A stretch of DNA of 64,000 nt, taken from positions 1 through 64,000 of the forward strand of contig DYJK01000005.1 in assembly GCA_020723165.1 (NCBI GenBank), written 5' to 3'. Source of the DNA: Melioribacter roseus. Lineage in GTDB: Bacteria > Bacteroidota > Ignavibacteria > Ignavibacteriales > Melioribacteraceae. The translations under genes were made by a program, and so were the position numbers. Under the pieces are notes generated by a model. The model searched no databases. It saw only the letters and a program-made list of their open reading frames with translations, and was not told the DNA's origin. Numbering within the stretch: position 1 is the first letter of the stretch; each line of letters starts with the position of its first letter. Positions 34,627 through 64,000 of this stretch are shown in pieces.

Positions 34627-35766
34627 ATGAAGACTACCAAAAGATTCTTTATTTATTTCATTATGCTTTTCCTATTCGCAATTTATAGTTGCTCACAAAG
34701 TCAAAACACTGGCTTTTCTAAGCGTGTAACTGCCGGTCGTCCCGTTCCGGATGGTGTGATGGATACATTAATGAATTTATATAATGTCCCCGGTGTAAGT
34801 ATTGCAGTAATCCACAACGGTCAAATTGATTGGGTGAAAGGTTACGGTCTCCGCGAATACGGAAAATCCGAACGTGTAGATAGCACCACTTTATTCCAGG
34901 CAGCTTCTATTTCAAAACCGGTCTCTGCAGTTGCTGCCTTGCGGATGGTTGATAAAGGAGAGCTAACCTTAGATGAAGATGTGAACCTCAAATTGCAGTC
35001 ATGGAAAGTACCTGAGAATGAATTCACCAAGAAACAATACATTACACTACGCCGACTATTGAGTCATTCTGCCGGCTTGTCTATGCACGGCGTCCCGGAA
35101 TTTTCTGCCGGTGCCGAACTCCCCACCCTCGTACAGATTCTCGACGGTAATTGGTTTGCATCAACAGAACCGGTTCGTGTAATCACCGAACCGGGCACTA
35201 TGTTCCGTTATTCCGGCGGCGGTTATATTGTGTTGCATGTACTATTGGAAGATATTACTAAGCGCCCATTTGCAGAGCTTGCCCGTGAATTCGTACTACA
35301 GCCAGCCGGCATGTTATCAAGTACTTTTGAACAACCTTTACCAAAGCAATTTTGGTCTCAAGCTGCTGTTGGGCATCTCGCTGACAAAACTCCCCTTCAA
35401 GGACTCTGGCACATATTGCCAGAGCAAGCGGCCGGCGGACTTTGGACAACTCCCAAAGACCTTGCATCATTCATGATAGAACTCTGGCGGTCTTATCAAG
35501 GTTTATCAGACAAACTTCTCCCTAAACATCTTGCACGCGAAATGTTGACAAGACAGATTGATGATTTTGGGCTTGGACTCTCTCTGCCGGGTGTTGGTGT
35601 CTCTCGTTTTCAGCACAGTGGCGGAAATGCCGGGTACCGGTGTTTTATGGTTCTTTCAATAGATGTTCCCGATGGCATCGTGATCATGACCAACAGTGAC
35701 TCCGGTGAAGAGTTAATCTGGAAAGTATTCGAGTTAATCGGTCACTCATACGGATGGCAAGTATAA
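34627..35766 (+). CDS. Serine hydrolase lipoprotein, class C beta-lactamase fold, second copy
   Basis: A 379-residue paralogue. The signal peptide ends with a lipobox before C22 (IYSC). SISK is at 94-97, YSG at 195-197, and HSGGNAGY near the C-terminus is the HxG-type third motif. The two neighbouring proteins resemble each other mainly at motifs, so this is not a recent tandem duplication. Its DNA is visibly GC-richer than neighbouring genes and uses more C/G third positions, which hints at separate acquisition. Substrate unknown. Confidence 0.87.
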   Translation: MKTTKRFFIYFIMLFLFAIYSCSQSQNTGFSKRVTAGRPVPDGVMDTLMNLYNVPGVSIAVIHNGQIDWVKGYGLREYGKSERVDSTTLFQAASISKPVSAVAALRMVDKGELTLDEDVNLKLQSWKVPENEFTKKQYITLRRLLSHSAGLSMHGVPEFSAGAELPTLVQILDGNWFASTEPVRVITEPGTMFRYSGGGYIVLHVLLEDITKRPFAELAREFVLQPAGMLSSTFEQPLPKQFWSQAAVGHLADKTPLQGLWHILPEQAAGGLWTTPKDLASFMIELWRSYQGLSDKLLPKHLAREMLTRQIDDFGLGLSLPGVGVSRFQHSGGNAGYRCFMVLSIDVPDGIVIMTNSDSGEELIWKVFELIGHSYGWQV

Positions 35767-43518: not shown

Positions 43519-44778
43519 TTATAGACTGTATAAGAAGTTAAGACCAAACAAATGGGCACTGTTAGTATATTGACCATTAAATCCAAATTTAGAACTGCTA
43601 ATAGTTCTATCTACGAAATGTAGATACATATAAGCTACATCCATAGTTAGATTATTTGATAATTTAGCGCCGTATCCAATGCTGAATCCTATTCTATCTG
43701 AATCCGGGAGTGTTGGCTCAACATACTCATCTTGTACCGGGTTGTTATCATATAACAATCCGCCTCTTAATTGGAAAGCATCTGTTACTGCATATTCAAA
43801 ACCACCGCGGATTATATAAGTATCTTCATATTTTCTATCTGTGGATAGAACATTTTGCTGACCGTTAGCCGGGTTAAAATCAAAATCATAACTCGCAAAA
43901 GTAACTTCCAGCTTATCATAACTCGACCATCCGACAAATTGGAAATCCGCTGTTAATGTTAATTTATCACTAGCCATGTAAGCGATACCAGCAGTTAAAT
44001 TTTGCGGTGTTGCTAACGGAGCGGTTATATCTCCATTCGGGAAAGGAAGCGATGCTTGTAATAACGGGTGGAAGAATGTTGCCGGGGTACTAACAGCAGT
44101 ACCTTCCAAATCAAAACTAACTTCGCTTCTATAACTGACACCTAATTGTAAATTATCAGTCGGTTTAACCAGCAAACCGGCTGTAAAACCAAAACCGGTA
44201 CCGTCACCGTTTAATTCAATTTCTATATCTCTGAGTGCTGGCGATAAGGGATTTGCTTGTTTTCTCATAATTGTGACATCACCAAATGCAAATACAGCAC
44301 CGGCACTTAAAGAGAACATATCTGAAAATTTATATGCTAGAACAACAGTGCCAAAAAAAGTTTTCAAATCTGTATCAAGTGCTAAATATCTTCCGGGCCA
44401 GCCCTGGTTCCACTCTGTTCCTAACCCGTAAGGATTATTAACGCTTAAACCGGCATAAAAATTATCAGTTATTTGATGGGTAATATAAACATTAATTGGA
44501 GAGAAGAATTGAGTTGTCATTTCATATTCTTTCTCTATAGGGCTAGTATATGAAGCTAACGGAGTAATTAAGGTTGTACCGAAATAAAATTGTGTTCCTT
44601 TTAATTGGGTAATACCAGCCGGGTTGAAATAAATTGCGGATGGATCGTTTGCTAAAGCTGTAAATGCACCGCCCATTGCCATGGCTCTTGCACCATGCTC
44701 GTTAATTTGGAAGCCGCCAGCATATGTGCGAACTGTGAACATTGCAACTAATAAAAGTAATGGTACTATTCTTTTCAC
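43519..44778 (-). CDS. OMPP1/FadL/TodX family outer-membrane transporter
   Basis: A 419-residue beta-barrel protein. The signal peptide (about 1-20, ending YA) precedes GGFQINEHGARAMAMGGAFTALANDPSAIYFNPAGI, the hatch region diagnostic of the family. The C-terminus ends in an aromatic strand (FGLNFLYSL). The start is GTG at 44778, four bases after AGGAGG. FadL relatives carry long-chain fatty acids or hydrophobic aromatics across the outer membrane. A hydroxylaminobenzene-mutase-like gene lies 6 kb away, but a link is speculative. Confidence 0.9.
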   Translation of the reverse strand: MKRIVPLLLLVAMFTVRTYAGGFQINEHGARAMAMGGAFTALANDPSAIYFNPAGITQLKGTQFYFGTTLITPLASYTSPIEKEYEMTTQFFSPINVYITHQITDNFYAGLSVNNPYGLGTEWNQGWPGRYLALDTDLKTFFGTVVLAYKFSDMFSLSAGAVFAFGDVTIMRKQANPLSPALRDIEIELNGDGTGFGFTAGLLVKPTDNLQLGVSYRSEVSFDLEGTAVSTPATFFHPLLQASLPFPNGDITAPLATPQNLTAGIAYMASDKLTLTADFQFVGWSSYDKLEVTFASYDFDFNPANGQQNVLSTDRKYEDTYIIRGGFEYAVTDAFQLRGGLLYDNNPVQDEYVEPTLPDSDRIGFSIGYGAKLSNNLTMDVAYMYLHFVDRTISSSKFGFNGQYTNSAHLFGLNFLYSL

Positions 44779-50265: not shown

Positions 50266-50679
50266 TTATATCTTAAGCAAAGTTGAATAGTTAATTCTCA
50301 AACAAGATGCTTTTCTAAGTTCTTGCTGAATATCGGTAACAACTCCCATATCAGAATTTTTATCAACACGTAGGGAAACTATTACATTGGGTAGTGAAAC
50401 CCTTTTGGAGTACATTATTTTTTGAATCTCGTCTAATTTTGTAAGACTATCATTAACTTGAATTTTACCATCTTGACCAATCCAAATATATGATATCAAT
50501 CTTTTGTTCTCTATTTTCTCAATAGCTTTTGCCTCGGGTAATCTAAATTGTACCAATACATCAACTTCTCTTAATGTAGTAGTAACCATAAAGAATAATA
50601 GCAGCATAAAAACAATATCCGGCATAGAGGCAGTTGGAATACTTGTTTTAGTATTAGATCTCTTTTTTTCAAATTTCAT
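50266..50679 (-). CDS. ExbD/TolR family biopolymer transport protein (second of pair)
   Basis: A 137-residue inner-membrane protein. The single helix starts at about residue 20 (MPDIVFMLLLFFMVTTTL) and includes the ion-translocating aspartate near the helix start (D21). The periplasmic domain is short. It works with ExbB to use proton motive force across the envelope. It is encoded 15 bases after another exbD. Having two ExbD genes allows mixed complexes. Confidence 0.88.
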   Translation of the reverse strand: MKFEKKRSNTKTSIPTASMPDIVFMLLLFFMVTTTLREVDVLVQFRLPEAKAIEKIENKRLISYIWIGQDGKIQVNDSLTKLDEIQKIMYSKRVSLPNVIVSLRVDKNSDMGVVTDIQQELRKASCLRINYSTLLKI

Positions 50680-50694
50680 TATAGTATCCCTAAA

Positions 50695-51240
50695 TTATTT
50701 TTTTATTGCTTCAGGTTCTGCAATACTTATAGTAATAGGAATTTTTTCACGTATTTCTTTCATCTCTTCACTTTTATCATTAAGATCAACTAATCTTTTG
50801 CCGTACTTTGATTGTGAATATTGTTCCCTGACACTAAAATATGCTTCTTTAACCTGATCTAATGCTTGTATGTATAAATTGTAATTTGTTTTTCTATCTG
50901 TTTTTACAGAAACGACTAACTTCTTTGTATCCGGTAAGTCAATTTTACTTTCTATTCTTGGTATCAAAGTTTTTGAAATCTGCGGTATAGCAATAATCTC
51001 GTTATTTAAGAGAACATCCCCGTTTTCATTTATCAGAACAGCAGCTAACCTATCCTTTGAAATCGGTACAGTAGTTTGTTGTTCCGGCGGAATAAACTCA
51101 GGTAATGTTAAACCGATACCGGTATCAACATCAATTACGGTAGACACCATGAAGAATAATAAAAGCAAAAAAGAGATATCAGCCATAGAGCTAGACGGGA
51201 TTTCCGGATCCGGCTTTTTTTTCTTTTTGATTTGAATCAT
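50695..51240 (-). CDS. ExbD/TolR family biopolymer transport protein (first of pair)
   Basis: A 181-residue protein of the same family. The transmembrane segment SMADISFLLLLFFMVSTVI carries the conserved Asp (D21), and a longer periplasmic domain (about 50-180) follows, with KLVVSVKTDRKTNYNLYIQAL. The lysine-rich N-terminus (KKKKKPDPEIP) is cytoplasmic. It is 30 bases after exbB and precedes the shorter exbD. Confidence 0.88.
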   Translation of the reverse strand: MIQIKKKKKPDPEIPSSSMADISFLLLLFFMVSTVIDVDTGIGLTLPEFIPPEQQTTVPISKDRLAAVLINENGDVLLNNEIIAIPQISKTLIPRIESKIDLPDTKKLVVSVKTDRKTNYNLYIQALDQVKEAYFSVREQYSQSKYGKRLVDLNDKSEEMKEIREKIPITISIAEPEAIKK

Positions 51241-51270
51241 TTTATTCTCAATAGATTATTTTAGCAATAG

Positions 51271-51957
51271 TTACTTTTTCTTCATTTCGTATAGAGCGTC
51301 GATCAATTCGATGGAGCTTTCTTCCATATCAGAGATGATTTTATCAATTCTTGATACAAAATAATTATATAGAGCTTGAAGAATCATAGCAACTACCAAT
51401 CCGAACAATGTTGTTAATAATGCAACAGAAATACCGCCGGCAACAACACCAGGAGAAATTTGAGCTGCTTCTTTAATAGCATCGAATGCCTGAATCATTC
51501 CTTGTACAGTTCCGGTAAAACCAAGCATAGGTGCCAAACTAATAAATAGTGAAATCCAAATTAATCCTTTTTCGAGGAACCCGGTTTCAATTGCACCATA
51601 TGCCATAATAGCTTTTTCAGCGGCATCGAGACCTTCATCAGCACGTAAAAGACCGGCATGGAAAACAGATGCAATAGAGCCGCGTGAATTTTCGCATAAC
51701 TTGATTGCTTCCGGAACGCCACCTTTATTTAAAGCATCTTTAACTTGCACGATGAATTTTTTTGTATTAATTGAAGCTTTAGAGAGAGTATACAATCTTT
51801 CGAATGCAAACCCCAGACCAATTATTAAGCATCCTAAAATTGGCCACATGAAAAGCCCGCCTTCAATGAATTTTTCTTGTAGATAAGTAATTATACCTTG
51901 ATCTTGAACTTGTGCTAGCACAAGTGTAATAAACCCATTAATCTCTGCGATTTGCAT
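51271..51957 (-). CDS. ExbB/TolQ family proton channel protein
   Basis: A 228-residue protein from ATG at 51957, nine bases after GGAGG; TTG at 51966 is less likely. Three helices are visible (about 30-50, 135-155, 170-200). The conserved LAPMLGFTGTVQGMIQAF and the GGISVALLTTLFGLVVAMILQAL helices line the pore with ExbD. No TonB or TolA gene follows, so the energised outer-membrane partner is unknown. Confidence 0.9.
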   Translation of the reverse strand: MQIAEINGFITLVLAQVQDQGIITYLQEKFIEGGLFMWPILGCLIIGLGFAFERLYTLSKASINTKKFIVQVKDALNKGGVPEAIKLCENSRGSIASVFHAGLLRADEGLDAAEKAIMAYGAIETGFLEKGLIWISLFISLAPMLGFTGTVQGMIQAFDAIKEAAQISPGVVAGGISVALLTTLFGLVVAMILQALYNYFVSRIDKIISDMEESSIELIDALYEMKKK

Positions 51958-52092
51958 AAGAGACAACCTCCATTGTTATTTTATTTATTGATTAGAAAAA
52001 TCGATCTTTTTCTAAAATTAAGCTTGCGAACATTAAACAAACTACGAAAAAAAGTCAATAAATAATTTATGACACTTCTTATTGTTTCTATC

Positions 52093-56828: not shown

Positions 56829-57551
56829 TTAATCCGTGAGAAATTTATAAATCAAATACCCGAAATTAACTTGAAGTAAACCGAAAGCAACTCCACTGTA
56901 AAGGTCGTAACGGTCAACATCATTAAGAAGTGCGTGATTTTTACTCGCAACGTATTCATCGTATTTTTTATCTGCCTGAATTTTAAAGTAAGCCGCGGTT
57001 GCCCCTAAAATTGCCGCGCTGCCCAGCAAAACTTTGAACCAATCTGAGCTTGAAAAACTTCCATTTGGTTTTGAAGGAATATAATCTAAAGGAACAACAT
57101 TAAATTTGTTAAGCTCGCTTGAGTGAAGGGTCTTTTGTGTACCGTTCTTCTTAAATATCACCGACTGGAATTGATTGACATTAACATAATTTGGTGTGTA
57201 TGCCATCAAGGAATCATAAATATACATCGCAGCATTTTGCGGATTACTATCGATGAAAATTTTATCGAATAAATTATAACTTACCAAATATTCTTTATCG
57301 CATAACTTTATAGTTACAGAATCATTTATCTCGTGCTCATTCCATCTTAATACTTCTTCTTTTATAGTAATGTAATATTTACCCAAAGTAACCGGAATTC
57401 TTATTTTGCCCGAGCCTTTCAACTCATTATTTACAAATATGTACGAGCTATCTCTGTTTGTTTCTATTTCAAGATAGCTTAGGCAGTCTTGCGCAAAGGA
57501 TGAAACAAACAGTGAAAAAAACATGATTAATAATAATTTCAATTTATACAT
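56829..57551 (-). CDS. Exported PEGA-like domain protein, unknown role
   Basis: A 240-residue protein with signal peptide (1-20, ending SFAQ). Residues 26-75 (LEIETNRDSSYIFVNNELKG, GKYYITIKEE) resemble a PEGA beta-sandwich. A second, weaker repeat follows (about 95-150), then a membrane helix (about 172-190) and a hydrophobic C-terminus. It is one base after the PQQ-propeller gene, so the two probably act together at the envelope. Confidence 0.6.
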   Translation of the reverse strand: MYKLKLLLIMFFSLFVSSFAQDCLSYLEIETNRDSSYIFVNNELKGSGKIRIPVTLGKYYITIKEEVLRWNEHEINDSVTIKLCDKEYLVSYNLFDKIFIDSNPQNAAMYIYDSLMAYTPNYVNVNQFQSVIFKKNGTQKTLHSSELNKFNVVPLDYIPSKPNGSFSSSDWFKVLLGSAAILGATAAYFKIQADKKYDEYVASKNHALLNDVDRYDLYSGVAFGLLQVNFGYLIYKFLTD

Positions 57552-57552
57552 G

Positions 57553-58704
57553 TTAATTCATCTTAAAAGTTTGAAATGCATGAATTTCACCTTTATCGGA
57601 TCCAAGATAAATTATTCCATCATAGTAGATCGGCATTAATTTTAACCTTCTTTCAAAATCGTATGTTTTAACAATTTCACCTAACGATTTATTGATAACG
57701 TGAACTTTTTTATTAAGATCAGGTTGATACAAATATGAATTAGTAAGTAACGGTGTTGTATTGATCACACCTTGTGTATTGATCATCCAATTCTTTTCCC
57801 CACTCGATTTATCAATAGAGAAAACTTTACCGGCTAAATTACCAACGATAACATTATTAGCATCGAATACCGGCATCGATTTAATATTTGAACCGGTATT
57901 GTATTCCCAATTTATTTTTTTCTTGTCGATATCAAATGAATAAATTTTGCCGGTCCTATCGCCAAAATATATTGTATCACTCTCCATTGAAATACCGCTC
58001 TCTATCGGGTCAGCTATCTTTTCTTTGTACTTAATTGTGCCATCATTACAATCAACAATCACAATCTCCCCTAACTGGTTACCGAATACAATAACTTTTC
58101 CATCCGATACCGGTGAACTTTGAGTAGTAGTTTTTGTTTTAGTTGACCATAATCTTGTACCGACAAGATTGTATTTAATAATTTCACCGGAATCCGTTAC
58201 AACGACGATCCCGTCATCGAGTAATAAGAGTTCGTTGGTTACACTTCCGGTAATCAAATCTTCGGAGAGAATCTTTCCATTGACAAAATCAAAGTGAATA
58301 AATGTTGAATATTTTTCTTCCCGTTCATTCACAACAAAAAATAATTTCAGTTTATATATAACGGGGTTGGCAGAAATAGCGCCCGGGAACTTTTCATAGC
58401 CCAATTGTTTGCCTTCATTTCTATCAAATACATAAATCCTCCCTGAAAGATCGGCTGCAAAGAGGTATTTACCGTAAATTAAGACGGAATTATTTGCCTG
58501 GCTACCGCTGGTTTCGGAGACCCAGAGTGGCTGTAAATATTCGGTAATAGAAATATTCTCAAAATTATTTCTAACATTACTTTTTCCAAAAATAAAATAA
58601 CCATCATCTTCAGCCGACATATTTTTAAGAATTATCGGCTGGGAACAAGAATAGAGTAATGCTATAGAAATGATATGTAAAAATATTTTTCTCAAAAATC
58701 CCAT
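57553..58704 (-). CDS. PQQ-type beta-propeller lipoprotein, BamB-like
   Basis: A 383-residue lipoprotein with lipobox YSC (C20). Repeated blades such as SVLIYGKYLFAADLSGRIYVFDR, IYFGDRTGKIYSFDIDKKKINWEY and IYLGSDKGEIHAFQT form a beta-propeller of the PQQ-repeat type without the cofactor residues of dehydrogenases. Such propellers scaffold the BAM complex (BamB), but this one is beside an outer-membrane barrel protein and overlaps its gene by 13 bases, so it may serve that partner. True BamB identity is not established. Confidence 0.78.
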   Translation of the reverse strand: MGFLRKIFLHIISIALLYSCSQPIILKNMSAEDDGYFIFGKSNVRNNFENISITEYLQPLWVSETSGSQANNSVLIYGKYLFAADLSGRIYVFDRNEGKQLGYEKFPGAISANPVIYKLKLFFVVNEREEKYSTFIHFDFVNGKILSEDLITGSVTNELLLLDDGIVVVTDSGEIIKYNLVGTRLWSTKTKTTTQSSPVSDGKVIVFGNQLGEIVIVDCNDGTIKYKEKIADPIESGISMESDTIYFGDRTGKIYSFDIDKKKINWEYNTGSNIKSMPVFDANNVIVGNLAGKVFSIDKSSGEKNWMINTQGVINTTPLLTNSYLYQPDLNKKVHVINKSLGEIVKTYDFERRLKLMPIYYDGIIYLGSDKGEIHAFQTFKMN

Positions 58705-61496
58705 CCGAAGAAAAATTGGTAAAATAATTTCGGCTGAAACTCGGTAAAATTCTTTTCGATCTTCTTGCCTATATCGTATCTGAGCGCGATAGCATTGAAT
58801 AAATTAATCCGCAAACCGAAACCGACACTGCCGAGTGTTTCTTTATAATTTTCATCCCATGCAGAGCCGGCATCAAAATACATTGCGCCGCGCAAATTGA
58901 AGAAACCAATTCCGAAAAACGGAAAATTGATATTGAATTGATCTATCAATGGAAATCTTAATTCAACCGATGAGAGCCATAACTTTTCACCGCGGATACT
59001 CCAACGAGGCCAGCCGCGCAAATCCCAACTGCCACCGGCAAAATATCTTCTTGCTTCTTTACCATGGTTAACAAAGAAAGCACTGCGTACTGCAAGTGCA
59101 CTTCGCAATCCTAACCTAAAATATTTACGGTAATCCGCTATGAATGAATAATAATTAACATTCGAAAATTTAATATCCGAAGTGTATCCTAATAAAACTC
59201 TAAAACGAGAACCATCGATTGGACCGGTTGCAGTCCAGATTGAGTTATCATGAACAAATGAGAGCGAGTTCGAAACAAGCAATGATTTGCGTGTGATTAA
59301 TTCCCCAACAAGTTCTTTATCGGAATTTGCAACGCTTACACCGGCTTCCAATCTTTGGAATGAAGAGAATGGATAATATAGTTCGAAGAAACCGCCGTAA
59401 ACTCTTTCATAAAAGAATTCATCCGATTCGCGTATATCATATCTTCTGCCGGCGTAATTAAAAATTCCGTAACCGTAATTTGAGCGTTCCTTCAAACTAA
59501 TTCTTGTTAAAGCCACGTTGAAATACTTCAATATTTCGCTTTGCACTTCTGCCGTATTGTAGATGTAGAATAAATATCTTTCATCACCCAATAAATCGCT
59601 TAACGTAAACAGAGCGCCGCCGCGTGTACCGTAAACCGGGTCGGTGATCAATTGTCCGACTGCATAATCTAATGCATATTCATGCTCATAAACTAATCTA
59701 TCTTTTTCTGAAGGGATATAAATTTTTTTAGCATCCCATCTCGATCTACCCTCGATAAAATTATTTGTTAATGTAATGGAAGTATCGGTATCATATCCAT
59801 TAAGCTGCAGATTATAGAATTGAAAAGAGAATTTTTCAAATGCAGATGTAACAAGAGTGTTTGAATCAATGAATGTAAAACCATAAACACTCGTTACAAA
59901 ATTGGTTAATTGAGTTATGGTCTTGGAGGGAATTTGCTCATAATCCATTTTCCAAATATTATATGTGCCGTTGTAATCGCATGTGAAGTAGAGTTCTTTA
60001 TAATCGGGCGAGAATTTTGGAGTAGAAATATTTGCATCAACATTTGTTAAATATGAAATTATGTGTAAATTAATATTGTAACTGAAAAGGTTAAATTTTT
60101 GTTGGTAGATTCCGGCTGTGCGATCGGATGAAAAGATTATTTTAGTTTTATCTTCATTGAATACCGGGTCCTTCTCTTCGTAGTAATCGTTTGTCAACCT
60201 TGTTAATTCAAGATCGACAAAATTATAAATGTATAAATCCGAGAAGCCCTTTCTATCTGTTGCAGAAAAAACCAATAAATTACAATCACCGGAAAAACAT
60301 GGCGCTTCTATTGTGATCAAGTCATCAAACCGCAATGTTTCTAATATTTCTTCCTCTTTAATCGAGTAAATATGAATCACGTCCGAACCTAAACTTTTTG
60401 TAATAAAAGCAAGTAGACCAGTTTTTGAAAGATCCATTGAATTTTCCATCAAGTGGAACGATTCGTAATCAGCTTCTTTCTCCCCTTCGATAATAATTTC
60501 AGGTTTAACAAAATCTTCAGATTCCGGATCATATTGCATTTTGAAAACAGAAGAATAACCGGATTGATTTCCGAGGAAATATATTTCCTTTGTACCGTTG
60601 TTATCATAATAAGCCGGATCAAAGTTGAATCCCTGGTTTGTAATTTTTTTCGACATTACAAAATGAGGATAGTTCTTTTCGTACAGCGGGAAGTAATTTT
60701 GTTGAAGCCAATAATGCCAATAATTATCAATCGATTGGAAGTCGTCCCCAAGCGTAAACGCAAGATTATCTTTGAACGAAACAAATCTCCAAAAGTTTTC
60801 CATGATCATTAGAATTTTTTCTTGTCCGTATTTTTCAGAAACAAATTCTAAAAATTTCTGTCCTTCTTTATAAATAACGTAACCATAGACAGCATCAAGA
60901 TCACTTAACCGGACAAAGTTGCCGTTAAGCACTAGGTCCCTCATCACCATTTCAGATTGAGTGTCCCAATCGAACGACCAGTATTCAGCCAAACCTTCAG
61001 TGAACCAAAGGGGCGGCATTCTTCCGGTATCAATTCTATGATCGGTAAGAACATTATAAATTTTACTTGTCATAAAAACGTGTACAAGTTCGTGCCTGAT
61101 TACGTGTTTGAATCCATCAAGATTGCCGAGATAAGGAATTACAACTCTCCCCTTCATAAACTCGAAAAATCCGCCTACACCTTCGGGTATAAATCCGGGT
61201 GTTGTGTTTGTCTGCTGGAAATGAATATGTGTATTGTAAAAAATGAGGGGAATTCTATTGTTGATATAATGGTTGAATTTAACTTTTAATTCCTGGTAAG
61301 CGTCTTCGGCAAAATTCGCCCCGATTTCAGCGATATCAACAAAATCGTCATAGTAATAAATATTGAAGTGTTCGGTCTTAAGAACTTTCCAATTAAATTT
61401 TTCGTACTGTACTTTGTTTCTACCAAAAAAATAATATTGGGCGGAAATAATTTGTGGAATAAAAATTACCAGTAAAAAATATTTCCGCCAATTCAT
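58692..61496 (-). CDS. Large envelope protein: peptidase-MA-like domain, propeller and outer-membrane barrel
   Basis: A 934-residue protein in three parts. After a signal peptide (1-19), residues 40-290 form a gluzincin-like metallopeptidase with HELVH at 135-139 and a third-ligand candidate in WFTEGLAEY (E167 or E171). Residues about 300-650 carry WD40/TolB-like repeats (ACFSGDCNLLVFSATDRKG, IIFSSDRTAGIYQQ). The C-terminus (about 680-934) is a BamA-type beta-barrel ending in an aromatic residue (GWDF). Relatives occur in Ignavibacteria and Gemmatimonadota. It may degrade or assemble proteins at the outer membrane; substrate unknown. Confidence 0.82.
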   Translation of the reverse strand: MNWRKYFLLVIFIPQIISAQYYFFGRNKVQYEKFNWKVLKTEHFNIYYYDDFVDIAEIGANFAEDAYQELKVKFNHYINNRIPLIFYNTHIHFQQTNTTPGFIPEGVGGFFEFMKGRVVIPYLGNLDGFKHVIRHELVHVFMTSKIYNVLTDHRIDTGRMPPLWFTEGLAEYWSFDWDTQSEMVMRDLVLNGNFVRLSDLDAVYGYVIYKEGQKFLEFVSEKYGQEKILMIMENFWRFVSFKDNLAFTLGDDFQSIDNYWHYWLQQNYFPLYEKNYPHFVMSKKITNQGFNFDPAYYDNNGTKEIYFLGNQSGYSSVFKMQYDPESEDFVKPEIIIEGEKEADYESFHLMENSMDLSKTGLLAFITKSLGSDVIHIYSIKEEEILETLRFDDLITIEAPCFSGDCNLLVFSATDRKGFSDLYIYNFVDLELTRLTNDYYEEKDPVFNEDKTKIIFSSDRTAGIYQQKFNLFSYNINLHIISYLTNVDANISTPKFSPDYKELYFTCDYNGTYNIWKMDYEQIPSKTITQLTNFVTSVYGFTFIDSNTLVTSAFEKFSFQFYNLQLNGYDTDTSITLTNNFIEGRSRWDAKKIYIPSEKDRLVYEHEYALDYAVGQLITDPVYGTRGGALFTLSDLLGDERYLFYIYNTAEVQSEILKYFNVALTRISLKERSNYGYGIFNYAGRRYDIRESDEFFYERVYGGFFELYYPFSSFQRLEAGVSVANSDKELVGELITRKSLLVSNSLSFVHDNSIWTATGPIDGSRFRVLLGYTSDIKFSNVNYYSFIADYRKYFRLGLRSALAVRSAFFVNHGKEARRYFAGGSWDLRGWPRWSIRGEKLWLSSVELRFPLIDQFNINFPFFGIGFFNLRGAMYFDAGSAWDENYKETLGSVGFGLRINLFNAIALRYDIGKKIEKNFTEFQPKLFYQFFFGWDF

Positions 61497-61497
61497 A

Positions 61498-62529
61498 TTA
61501 AAGCCGTGATTTTAAATAATTAATATTTTCTATTGTTGTTGGATCGAAATTGCGAATTACGGCAAAGTAATACGTTGCCCAATCAGCAAAGTAGATTAAA
61601 TCAACCAATTTTAGTTTTGCATTTTTCTCATTGCTTTTAAGGTCAACTACCTCACCGCCGTTTTTCTTAATAACTTCACTTGTTACTTCAATTCTCTTTT
61701 TAACTTGCGGATGATATTCTTCATCCAAGATGTTAACTAATTTTATATTTATTTGATCCGGTTTATAACCTTCCCATCCCATAATTTCATTATGATCGAG
61801 TTCTGGGAAGTAAGCAAAGTAAGCATGCTGTTTTGAATTTTCATTAAACTGTCCTTTGAATCTCGTTCCTATAACAGAAGTATAATCCGATACTGCATAA
61901 ATAACCGGGATATACCCCACCATGTTTTCAGCAAAATCCAACGTTGCATTTTTTTCTTTAGAGTACTCTTCCCCTTTTCTTTTTAGCAGATCAATTACAT
62001 CTGCAACATTTTTATTTTGATCTGGTACCAATTTGAGAGAATGGAGCGTCTTTAGCAATGTAAAAAAATTTATCCAAAGTGCGAACCTCGGTTGGTATCC
62101 TTTTAGAAGTTTCCCCAAAGGAATATTATTTGCTTTAGCAATTTCTTCCATTTTACCGCCGGTTGTTACACAAACAACCTGGCATTTCTTAGCGATTGCT
62201 TCATTTAAAGCGGAAAGTGTCTCTTCAGTATTACCCGAATAGGATGAAGCAAGTACAAGAGTATCTTGGTTTGCATATGGAGGCAGCTCATAATTACGAT
62301 TTACGGAATAAGGATATTTTAGTTCGGTACGGAAAAAGTTTTGAATCAGTTCTCCGCCAATTGCCGATCCGCCGAGTCCGGTTAAAATTATATTTTTTAC
62401 TTTTGATGTATCGATTAATGATAGATCAATATTCAAATTCCATGCGTATTCTACTTGTGTGTAAGAATCTTTTAAAACCTGGAATTGATTAGCCGGATCA
62501 TGTTTTTTAATCATTTCTGATATTTGCAT
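61498..62529 (-). CDS. Bifunctional phosphoglucose/phosphomannose isomerase
   Basis: A 343-residue protein with two SIS domains. GLGGSAIGGELI is the first sugar-phosphate loop, ASSYSGNTEETL the second, and PELDHNEIMGWEG carries the catalytic glutamate/histidine typical of the bacterial and archaeal bifunctional PGI/PMI family. It interconverts glucose-6-phosphate or mannose-6-phosphate with fructose-6-phosphate. It is one base after the big barrel gene and nine after ptsI on the same strand. Confidence 0.9.
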   Translation of the reverse strand: MQISEMIKKHDPANQFQVLKDSYTQVEYAWNLNIDLSLIDTSKVKNIILTGLGGSAIGGELIQNFFRTELKYPYSVNRNYELPPYANQDTLVLASSYSGNTEETLSALNEAIAKKCQVVCVTTGGKMEEIAKANNIPLGKLLKGYQPRFALWINFFTLLKTLHSLKLVPDQNKNVADVIDLLKRKGEEYSKEKNATLDFAENMVGYIPVIYAVSDYTSVIGTRFKGQFNENSKQHAYFAYFPELDHNEIMGWEGYKPDQINIKLVNILDEEYHPQVKKRIEVTSEVIKKNGGEVVDLKSNEKNAKLKLVDLIYFADWATYYFAVIRNFDPTTIENINYLKSRL

Positions 62530-62537
62530 CTTTTACC

Positions 62538-64000
62538 TCAGTATAAGTTTTTAATTTGATCTTGTATTTTGTTATTGAAGAATTCATGTATGCTTTTATT
62601 TATTTCATACTCAGTTTTTAACTTTAGACAGTCTTCCGCTAATTTTATTAAATCAGCGTAGTTTAAACTTCTAATTATTTTCTTGAGTGAGGGAATTGCA
62701 GAAGCCGATACACTAAGAGTTTCTAATCCCAATCCCAATAATAAAGGTACGGCAAAAGGATCAGCCGCCATCTCTCCGCACATGCTAACGTTAGTGTTAT
62801 ATTTTTTCCCTTCACTGATTATGTATTGAATTGTCCGAACAACAGATGGATGAAATTCCTGATATTGTTTGGAAACAATATCGTTTCCCCTATCAACTGC
62901 AAGCATGTATTGGATAAGATCATTTGTACCGATACTTAGAAAATCAATCTCTTCAGAAAATTCTTTTATCATTAATGCTGCCGAAGGAACTTCAATCATT
63001 ATACCCAGGCTGATGTTTTTATCATAGCGTTTATTTTCCTGGTGTAATTCCTTTTTACACTCATCTATCAATTTCTTTGAATCCTGAACTTCATTTAATG
63101 AAGCAATCATAGGAAGCATAAACTTTACATTTTTGTGTGTACTTGCACGCAGCACTGCACGTATTTGTGTTTTAAACAAATGCGGATTATCCAACAACAA
63201 CCTGATACCTCTCCATCCAAGCATAGGGTTCGGTTCATGCAGATCAACCGGCAGAACTTTATCGCCGCCAATATCAAAAGCACGTATTGTGACAATGCCG
63301 GGATACACTTGTTCTGCTATTTTACTATAAACTTCATACTGTCTTTCTTCATCAGGGAATTCCTCGTATTCCTCGAATAATTGTTCTGTACGCACAAGTC
63401 CTATACCTTTTGCACAGTTGTGAATTATGAAGGACATTTCATCGGAAACATCAAGATTGGCAAGCATTTCAATTTCTTTCCCATCGGTAGTGAGTGCCGG
63501 CAGTTCACGGATTTTGTAGAGCTCTTCATCATACTTAGATAATCTTTTAATTCTTTCGTGGTATTCTTGAAGTTGTTCATTATCGGGATTTATAATAACC
63601 AATCCATGAAACCCGTCAATTATTATTTTATCTCTCTCATTAATTTTGTTTGTTGCGTCGTGGAGACCAACAACAGCCGGGATATTCAAAGAGCGGGCAA
63701 CGATTGCAGCATGTGAAGTTAAACCTCCGAAATCTGTAACGTATCCTTTAACATTTACACGTGAAAACAAAACCGTATCTGAAGGAGAAATATTGGATGT
63801 TACTACAATAACATCATCGGATATTTTTGAAGTCCACTTTTTCTTTTTAAGATTTTTAATGATCCTATTTTTGATATCCTCAATATCATGTGATCTTTCT
63901 TTCATATAAACTTCGTGTGAAAGACTCATAATAGAAGTGTATTTGGAAATTTCATCTTCAACAATATACTCGGGTAATCTTTTTTCGCTGCTGATTCTAT
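62538..64000 (-). CDS. ptsI: Phosphoenolpyruvate-protein phosphotransferase, N-terminal end outside window
   Basis: Enzyme I of the PTS: takes phosphate from PEP and passes it to HPr. ATG at 63929 is not the true start; the frame continues open to the window edge and encodes RLPEYIVEDEISKY, the family's usual second-helix region, so about 90 residues lie beyond. The active histidine is in GGLTSHAAIVA, with the PEP-binding FDIGGDKVLP, RGIRLLL and SIGTNDLIQYM segments. A partner HPr gene is not seen, but hprK is at 16.6 kb. Confidence 0.94.
   Translation of the reverse strand, partial: RISSEKRLPEYIVEDEISKYTSIMSLSHEVYMKERSHDIEDIKNRIIKNLKKKKWTSKISDDVIVVTSNISPSDTVLFSRVNVKGYVTDFGGLTSHAAIVARSLNIPAVVGLHDATNKINERDKIIIDGFHGLVIINPDNEQLQEYHERIKRLSKYDEELYKIRELPALTTDGKEIEMLANLDVSDEMSFIIHNCAKGIGLVRTEQLFEEYEEFPDEERQYEVYSKIAEQVYPGIVTIRAFDIGGDKVLPVDLHEPNPMLGWRGIRLLLDNPHLFKTQIRAVLRASTHKNVKFMLPMIASLNEVQDSKKLIDECKKELHQENKRYDKNISLGIMIEVPSAALMIKEFSEEIDFLSIGTNDLIQYMLAVDRGNDIVSKQYQEFHPSVVRTIQYIISEGKKYNTNVSMCGEMAADPFAVPLLLGLGLETLSVSASAIPSLKKIIRSLNYADLIKLAEDCLKLKTEYEINKSIHEFFNNKIQDQIKNLY

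Follow-up and report, generated by a model that had tools for sequence, protein, structure and literature searches.

A predicted gluzincin-propeller-Omp85 protein and its BamB-like lipoprotein neighbor in Ignavibacteriales: a possible second station for outer-membrane assembly or quality control

Omp85 proteins that bear a propeller were described in 2014, and their role has only been guessed at. Heinz and Lithgow set them apart in that year as the WD40-Omp85 subfamily, which the text defining it calls reminiscent of a BamA-BamB fusion (PMC4104836). Omp85 proteins can also bear enzymes, as does PlpD, whose enzyme domain was formerly thought to be surface-exposed and has been shown to be periplasmic (PMC11116518). 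Here we analyze a locus in a 64,000-nucleotide stretch of Melioribacter roseus DNA (assembly GCA_020723165.1, contig DYJK01000005.1, positions 1 to 64,000; "the window" below is this whole stretch), where one gene, A, encodes a predicted zinc protease, a TolB-type propeller and an Omp85 barrel in a single polypeptide and overlaps a second gene, B, for a BamB-like propeller lipoprotein. Many bacteria of the group keep A and B, usually adjacent. These findings suggest that proteolysis and outer-membrane assembly are fused in some bacteria, and we tentatively favor a reading in which A and B act together in the manner of the beta-barrel assembly machinery (BAM) or the translocation and assembly module (TAM).

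Protein A: domains and conserved residues

Gene A (58692..61496; this and all gene and domain coordinates of the cluster given below are on the minus strand) encodes 934 residues, in which a signal peptide, recognized by eye, is followed by a gluzincin domain of the Peptidase MA type, a TolB-type propeller and a 16-stranded Omp85 barrel. An initial annotation, made by a model from the letters of the window, had read an HExxH metallopeptidase, WD40/TolB-like repeats and a BamA-type barrel in these 934 residues, and Pfam, NCBIfam, AlphaFold2 (AF2) and VIA bear this out. By AF2 secondary structure the gluzincin domain spans approximately residues 37-268 (60693..61388), and Peptidase_MA_2 (PF13485) matches residues 124-265 at 35.5 bits, over its cut-off of 32.4. 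The propeller (residues 282-577; 59766..60653) yields a PD40 repeat match below the Pfam cut-off only, and the NCBIfam TolB propeller model TIGR02800 matches A at 1.6e-18, far under the equivalog cut-off. A profile of 20 relatives, compared with the PDB, recovered TolB at 5.5e-19 and, at 2e-7 to 6e-6, barrels of the BamA type. The AF2 model, likewise built from 20 sequences, has an alpha/beta domain at 37-268, the propeller at 282-577 and 16 strands between 607 and 932; about 30 residues separate propeller from barrel, and there is therefore little space for a polypeptide-transport-associated (POTRA) domain. In VIA-align comparisons A superposes on TolB (a model, Z 26.0, 247 residues, root-mean-square deviation (rmsd) 2.5; crystal structure 1c5k, Z 25.5, 242 residues, rmsd 2.3) and on BamA (Z 20.3; 284 residues at rmsd 3.8 for Fusobacterium, 271 residues at rmsd 3.2 for Deinococcus). 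A structure search with the whole protein covered mainly propeller and barrel and hardly the gluzincin, which makes the absence of a gluzincin match there uninformative. The barrel (residues 607-934; 58695..59678; AF2, VIA, PF01103 and alignment) carries an L6-type LRGW motif at 826-829 and scores 43.3 bits against Omp85 PF01103, for which the cut-off is 24; the same family is above cut-off in an orthologue from another class (L116) and in a Kapabacteria homologue (L048). With 16 strands, an L6 motif of the (V/L)RG form and the PF01103 match, A is a member of the Omp85 superfamily.

Residue conservation was counted in the fetched loci, over the 87 distinct sequences that are 850 residues or longer and match the A profile. 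They span three clades and two phyla and include Gemmatimonadota and Kapabacteria proteins at about 25-27% identity; in most relatives that carry A itself, identity is 48-78% over nearly the full length. H135, E136 and H139 of the HELVH zinc site (residues 135-139; 61080..61094) and E167 in WF-x-EGLAEY (60996..60998) are invariant, each in 87/87, so the metallopeptidase residues, whose loss from most homologues the initial annotation had named as a ground for abandoning its proposal, are retained throughout. We take E167 to be the third zinc ligand, as in other gluzincins. Judged by the HExxH, the downstream Glu and a profile match over cut-off, A is a Peptidase MA gluzincin with predicted activity, and its protease site is apparently intact. 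In the barrel, the Arg-Gly of the L6-type motif is similarly fixed (R827 in 87/87, G828 in 86/87). A further segment, F-G-x-N-K at residues 24-28 (window 61413-61427), just past the signal peptide, is invariant save for one K-to-R among the 87 homologues across clades.

The host genome (Ignavibacteriales, 3.8 Mb, 193 contigs, 98% complete), whose closest named relatives among the matches found are Ignavibacteriales and Melioribacter metagenome-assembled genomes, contains seven PF01103 matches. A ranks sixth by score and the seventh is interrupted by stops. Since most of the six further matches outscore A, the genome probably has a BamA besides A, and we judge it unlikely that A is the housekeeping BamA. 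The Deinococcus-type BamA model NF058613 gives A 13.6 bits against a cut-off of 1050, with no other BamA or TamA NCBIfam model matching A at E-values up to 1, and the BamB equivalog TIGR03300 gives B 104.6 bits against 285.2; with scores this far under the cut-offs, we rejected the assignment of A and B as BamA and BamB equivalogs.

The lipoprotein B, the variable member C and their gene order

Gene B (57553..58704, 383 residues) was recognized as a BamB-like propeller lipoprotein from Pfam, alignment, AF2 and fold search. It scores 76.4 bits against PQQ_2/BamB (cut-off 27.6), and its AF2 model has a mean predicted local distance difference test score (pLDDT) of 89.2 and 30 strands, a number consistent with an eight-bladed propeller. 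The top natural matches in a Foldseek search were BamB and YxaL, with 14-19% identity in the first ten rows. Its lipobox Cys20 is invariant in 12 aligned rows; a pattern search picks out a lipobox-like Cys in 56 of 59 B open reading frames (ORFs), inspection by eye adds two of the remaining three, and in 42 of the 56 the following residue is Ser, Thr or Ala. On the strength of this lipobox B is a predicted lipoprotein. The third gene, C (56829..57551, 240 residues), begins one base beyond B and encodes a signal peptide (by eye), a PEGA-like region and a C-terminal helical hairpin. PEGA-like is how the initial annotation had described it, and while the position of the gene stands, the family assignment is marginal (PF08308 at 20.7 bits against a cut-off of 20.8); a distant C (L117) matched no family at E 0.05. 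The best-conserved part of C is the C-terminal pair of hydrophobic helices, whose mean 17-residue hydropathy over 59 C ORFs is 1.63 and 1.60, with lowest values of 1.28 and 0.61, so that a membrane hairpin of moderate hydropathy is likely but not certain. Both sets of 59 ORFs contain duplicate records of one genome.

ORF coordinates and Pfam agree with the earlier description of three genes on one strand, in which A overlaps the lipoprotein gene by 13 bases (58692..58704). Among 42 loci in which both genes could be measured, the own locus included and the leftmost start taken, the overlap is 13 bases long in 30; it is 4 bases in five, a single base in four and some other length in three. The 13-base overlap recurs because the ATG of B falls within the final codons of A, which encode the conserved GWDF, and a start codon of B placed inside A suggests coupled translation.

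This gene order is kept well beyond the window. In a near-home sample of 58 genomes (our own and 57 relatives), A is present in 45, and the other 13 hold at most a paralog. In 44 of the 45 genomes with A, B is the next gene, a count made up of 42 of the 43 loci in the main locus survey together with G013 and G002. In the exception, G054, the contig carrying A ends and B and C are found on another. C occurs in 42 of the 58 genomes, all of them A-bearing, and is absent after B in G014, G044 and G051; the 13 genomes without A gave no match to C, and seven of them gave matches to the B profile, all partial. In a larger sample of 149 genomes of the class (thresholds 1e-90 for A, 1e-12 for B and 1e-3 for C), A was found in 92, B in 98 and C in 75. 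B is matched in 91 of the 92 genomes with A, whereas C is matched in 74 of them and in 1 of the 57 without A. Co-occurrence across genomes thus holds firmly for A and B and more weakly for C, and since C went undetected in 18 of the 92, A and B are the core: of the three-gene cluster first described, the A-B pair stands and C as a fixed member does not. Fisher p values for such co-occurrence ignore shared descent.

Judged from coordinates, 64 of the 92 genomes have A and B linked, 24 have them apart and four (G089, G105, G156, G187) are not callable; G069 and G086 were scored as linked from the A-C spacing alone. A genome counts as unlinked, by construction, when B is found elsewhere, and the fair form of the result is that no class genome with A is clearly without B. 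In the 15 of the 24 unlinked genomes that have C, B and C lie near each other on the same contig, as read directly in G072 and G108; the loci of A were read directly in G062, G072 and G108 and those of B in G064, G072 and G108, and the rest were called from coordinates. In one of these genomes, G064 (L132:6520-8723), C is undetected and the gene after B resembles, by eye, a lipid A acyltransferase. Across the phylum sample, 180 of 296 genomes have a match to A at 1e-20 or better, paralogs included. Among the 31 genomes outside the class that match A at 1e-130 or better, B adjoins A in 25 by profile (threshold 1e-6) and in 28 when loci were also read directly. Gene order is therefore conserved in relatives, and a chance cluster was rejected, as the same order recurs throughout the phylum sample. 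Type IX secretion was considered as an explanation for the presence or absence of A and set aside, as SprA_N is found in 144 of the 149 class genomes, with and without A, and is uninformative.

Upstream genes, other neighbors and paralogous clades

One base upstream of A and in the same gene run lies a PGI/PMI-type isomerase (61498..62529; Pfam). The whole co-directional run in the own genome reads polyprenyl synthase and HPr (both by eye), enzyme I of the phosphotransferase system (PTS), PGI/PMI, A, B and C, and across loci the gene directly upstream of A is enzyme I or PGI/PMI in 42 of 57. In the run from window 61498-64000 onward on the contig, PTS phosphocarriers thus accompany an outer-membrane gene. 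Downstream of the cluster, past an opposite-strand polA (by eye), one ExbB-like and two ExbD-like genes (by eye; window 50266-51966) are found, as they are in many relatives. Farther away are a FadL/TodX-type outer-membrane transport protein (PF03349; window 43519-44778) and a beta-lactamase-family serine hydrolase (PF00144; window 34627-35766), the latter at a local G+C of 0.41 compared with mostly 0.30-0.38 elsewhere. A scan for regulatory elements returned 32 promoter-like elements where 30.8 were expected and 11 terminator-like elements where 5.3 were expected.

A phylogenetic tree splits the A clade from its paralogs with full support (SH-aLRT 100, branch 1.2). One paralogous clade, P1, consists of gluzincin-propeller proteins of about 1050-1080 residues, and in 11 of the 12 P1 loci surveyed (L101-L110, L112 and L114) the order is a TamB-like gene, then RNase R (by eye), then the paralog. 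The own genome has such a locus (L101:10168-16270, G000:C169), with its TamB-like gene cut by the contig end. The TamB-like protein matches NCBIfam TamB at 2.8e-16, under cut-off, and Pfam AsmA and DUF748, also under cut-off. A P1 representative (L102) has PD40 and Peptidase MA matches above cut-off in Pfam, and the case for a P1 barrel rests on alignment to A (for example residues 619-823, 35% identity, 8e-25) and on retention of R827. From its place in this run the P1 protein is a candidate protease-bearing partner of TamB. A third clade of about 1020-1040 residues (L111, L113, L115) groups with Gemmatimonadota proteins (L051, L052) and not with the other Ignavibacteria ones. No TamB-like gene was recognized among the neighbors of A in the loci surveyed.

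Possible role of the pair and comparison with described systems

Having found that A and B are kept together, we can ask what they might do. The reading we favor, although we would give it a little less than an even chance, is that A and B make up a second BAM/TAM-like assembly or quality-control station, built from a POTRA-less protein of the WD40-Omp85 type with a periplasmic protease and a partner. An Omp85 barrel with an even number of strands begins and ends on the periplasmic side, so that domains N-terminal to it are periplasmic as well; from this topology and from the PlpD precedent we infer that the zinc protease and the TolB-type propeller of A, which would take the place of POTRA domains, face the periplasm while the barrel sits in the outer membrane. 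The lipoprotein propeller B, its translation perhaps coupled to that of A through the start codon inside A, may dock on the periplasmic part of A as BamB does on BamA. C, where present, would be a periplasmic PEGA-like protein anchored, probably to the inner membrane, by the hairpin at its C-terminus and reaching toward the station. We speculate that such a station inserts or handles outer-membrane or exported proteins, and that the protease, tethered to the barrel, clears or trims the substrates held there; BepA acts in a broadly similar way at BAM but is not tethered in this fashion. Of the two interpretations offered in the initial annotation, this keeps the assembly device with its own lipoprotein.

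Several results weigh against this proposal. No POTRA family matched A in Pfam at E-values up to 1, and well-studied assembly Omp85 proteins possess POTRA domains. Structure prediction recovers the propeller and barrel of A and the propeller of B, but the model of A is of middling quality as a whole (mean pLDDT 72.6, predicted template-modeling score 0.44) and does not settle how its domains are arranged; the fold of B is as near to non-BAM propellers (YxaL and designed ones) as to BamB. The immediate upstream neighbors of A are metabolic and not envelope genes. The one A-bearing class genome in which B was missed at the threshold used, G069, has C near A with space for B between, and conversely B is matched in 7 of the 57 class genomes without A (six partial matches and one clear, a B-C pair in G185) and its profile matched somewhere in 6 of 30 comparison genomes with paralogs only, which were picked from the phylum listing and not at random. 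The 24 unlinked cases belong to three families only (f8, f10, f15) and may be few events. In other classes, several of the 25 adjacent B matches are both partial and weak, some reaching only about 1e-8, and B was unmatched at 1e-6 in G192, G206, G230, G265 and G294 and matched elsewhere in G196; on reading the loci, a B-profile match lies beside A in G206, G294 and G196 (in G196 only at 1e-4), while in G192 the neighbor is a 432-residue ORF without a B match. In the P1 clade, finally, the representative L102 gave no Pfam Omp85 hit and the own-genome protein is absent from the PF01103 matches.

It is also possible, if somewhat unlikely, that A is an enzyme of the PlpD kind, whose barrel only anchors it in the membrane while its periplasmic peptidase domain processes proteins or peptides of the envelope, with B as a gating or structural partner and no assembly involved. 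There is precedent for an Omp85 protein with a periplasmic enzyme domain (PMC11116518), and the failure to find POTRA domains in A and the invariance of its protease residues fit this explanation. The L6-type Arg-Gly, kept in 86-87 of the 87 homologues, argues the other way, although barrel stability by itself could account for its retention, and so does the TamB-like neighbor of the P1 paralog, which points to assembly or transport. We think it improbable that A, B and C lack a joint function and are linked by shared operon history alone. The metabolic genes are tightly linked as well, with enzyme I or PGI/PMI upstream at the frequency given above, and the co-occurrence counts are not corrected for descent; but A is never clearly found without B in the class (91/92, with room for B in the remaining genome), one clear B occurs among the 57 genomes without A, and 24 genomes from three families, which may stand for few events, keep B elsewhere.

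A surface-displayed protease, the other interpretation in the initial annotation, would require the barrel to carry both N-terminal domains, protease and propeller, out to the cell surface, which conflicts with the periplasmic ends of even-stranded Omp85 barrels, and we regard it as very improbable. All that speaks for it is the former view of PlpD, and the PlpD enzyme domain has been shown to be periplasmic (PMC11116518). About as improbable is a structural role for the zinc site, with the gluzincin domain as a scaffold substituting for POTRA domains, since the catalytic Glu136 as well as the metal ligands is kept in all 87 sequences from three clades and two phyla.

A broader form of the assembly reading takes in the paralogs: much of the phylum may carry an Omp85-type family that has, instead of POTRA domains, a TolB propeller and a zinc protease that is active, of which one clade, with a TamB-like protein, would be a protease-equipped TAM, and the A clade, with its BamB-like lipoprotein and mostly an inner-membrane PEGA-like protein, a second, protease-equipped BAM. 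We consider this unlikely as it stands, the lack of a Pfam Omp85 match in P1 lowering the probability of a two-clade reading. If true, proteolysis would be part of outer-membrane assembly itself and would not depend on separate proteases for quality control. For proteins whose role has only been guessed at, the invariant protease site, the conserved lipoprotein partner and the sister clade's TamB-like neighbor make for a specific, testable proposal.

How does the pair compare with what has been described? BepA, a separate periplasmic protein combining an M48 peptidase with tetratricopeptide repeats, is not fused to a barrel as the protease of A is. We know of no lipoprotein partner of PlpD. 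The 'Metallo' Omp85 subfamily differs from A: PF00149 is a phosphoesterase family. It is by PF00149 that Heinz and Lithgow define 'Metallo' (PMC4104836). BepA resembles A as a zinc metallopeptidase working at an outer-membrane assembly site (PMC8423444), and PlpD resembles it in having an enzyme domain ahead of an Omp85 barrel, although that domain is patatin-like where A has a gluzincin and a propeller (PMC11116518). With BamA and BamB of the E. coli BAM, the locus shares the barrel fold, the L6-type motif and a BamB-like lipoprotein propeller, encoded adjacent to A; it differs in lacking a detected POTRA domain, in equivalog scores far under cut-off and in the added protease domain. TAM (TamA/TamL-TamB) also includes an Omp85 protein, and a TamB-like gene shares the gene run of the P1 paralogs; for A itself neither a TamB-like neighbor nor a POTRA domain was recognized. 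In Bacteroidota, tamL and tamB are reported not to share an operon, and TamB2 together with TamL2 occurs in 20 of 30 species, so a TamB-Omp85 operon as such is not new (PMC12045153). The BamADGH complex of Bacteroidota is, like the station proposed here, a phylum-specific elaboration of outer-membrane assembly, and the main text on it contains none of the words 'peptidase', 'propeller' and 'PEGA' (PMC12611786). In the open-licence PMC literature, judged mostly by titles and the starts of abstracts, we found neither the A-B pair nor any protein combining gluzincin, propeller and Omp85 barrel described. A close match is the WD40-Omp85 subfamily, where, as in A, a TolB-type propeller comes right before a POTRA-less Omp85 barrel; compared by description, the section defining the subfamily names no gluzincin and no lipoprotein or PEGA partner, and 'peptidase' is absent from the main text (PMC4104836). 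Protein A thus looks like a propeller-Omp85 protein of a known kind to which a protease domain and the partner B have been joined, apparently as undescribed additions.

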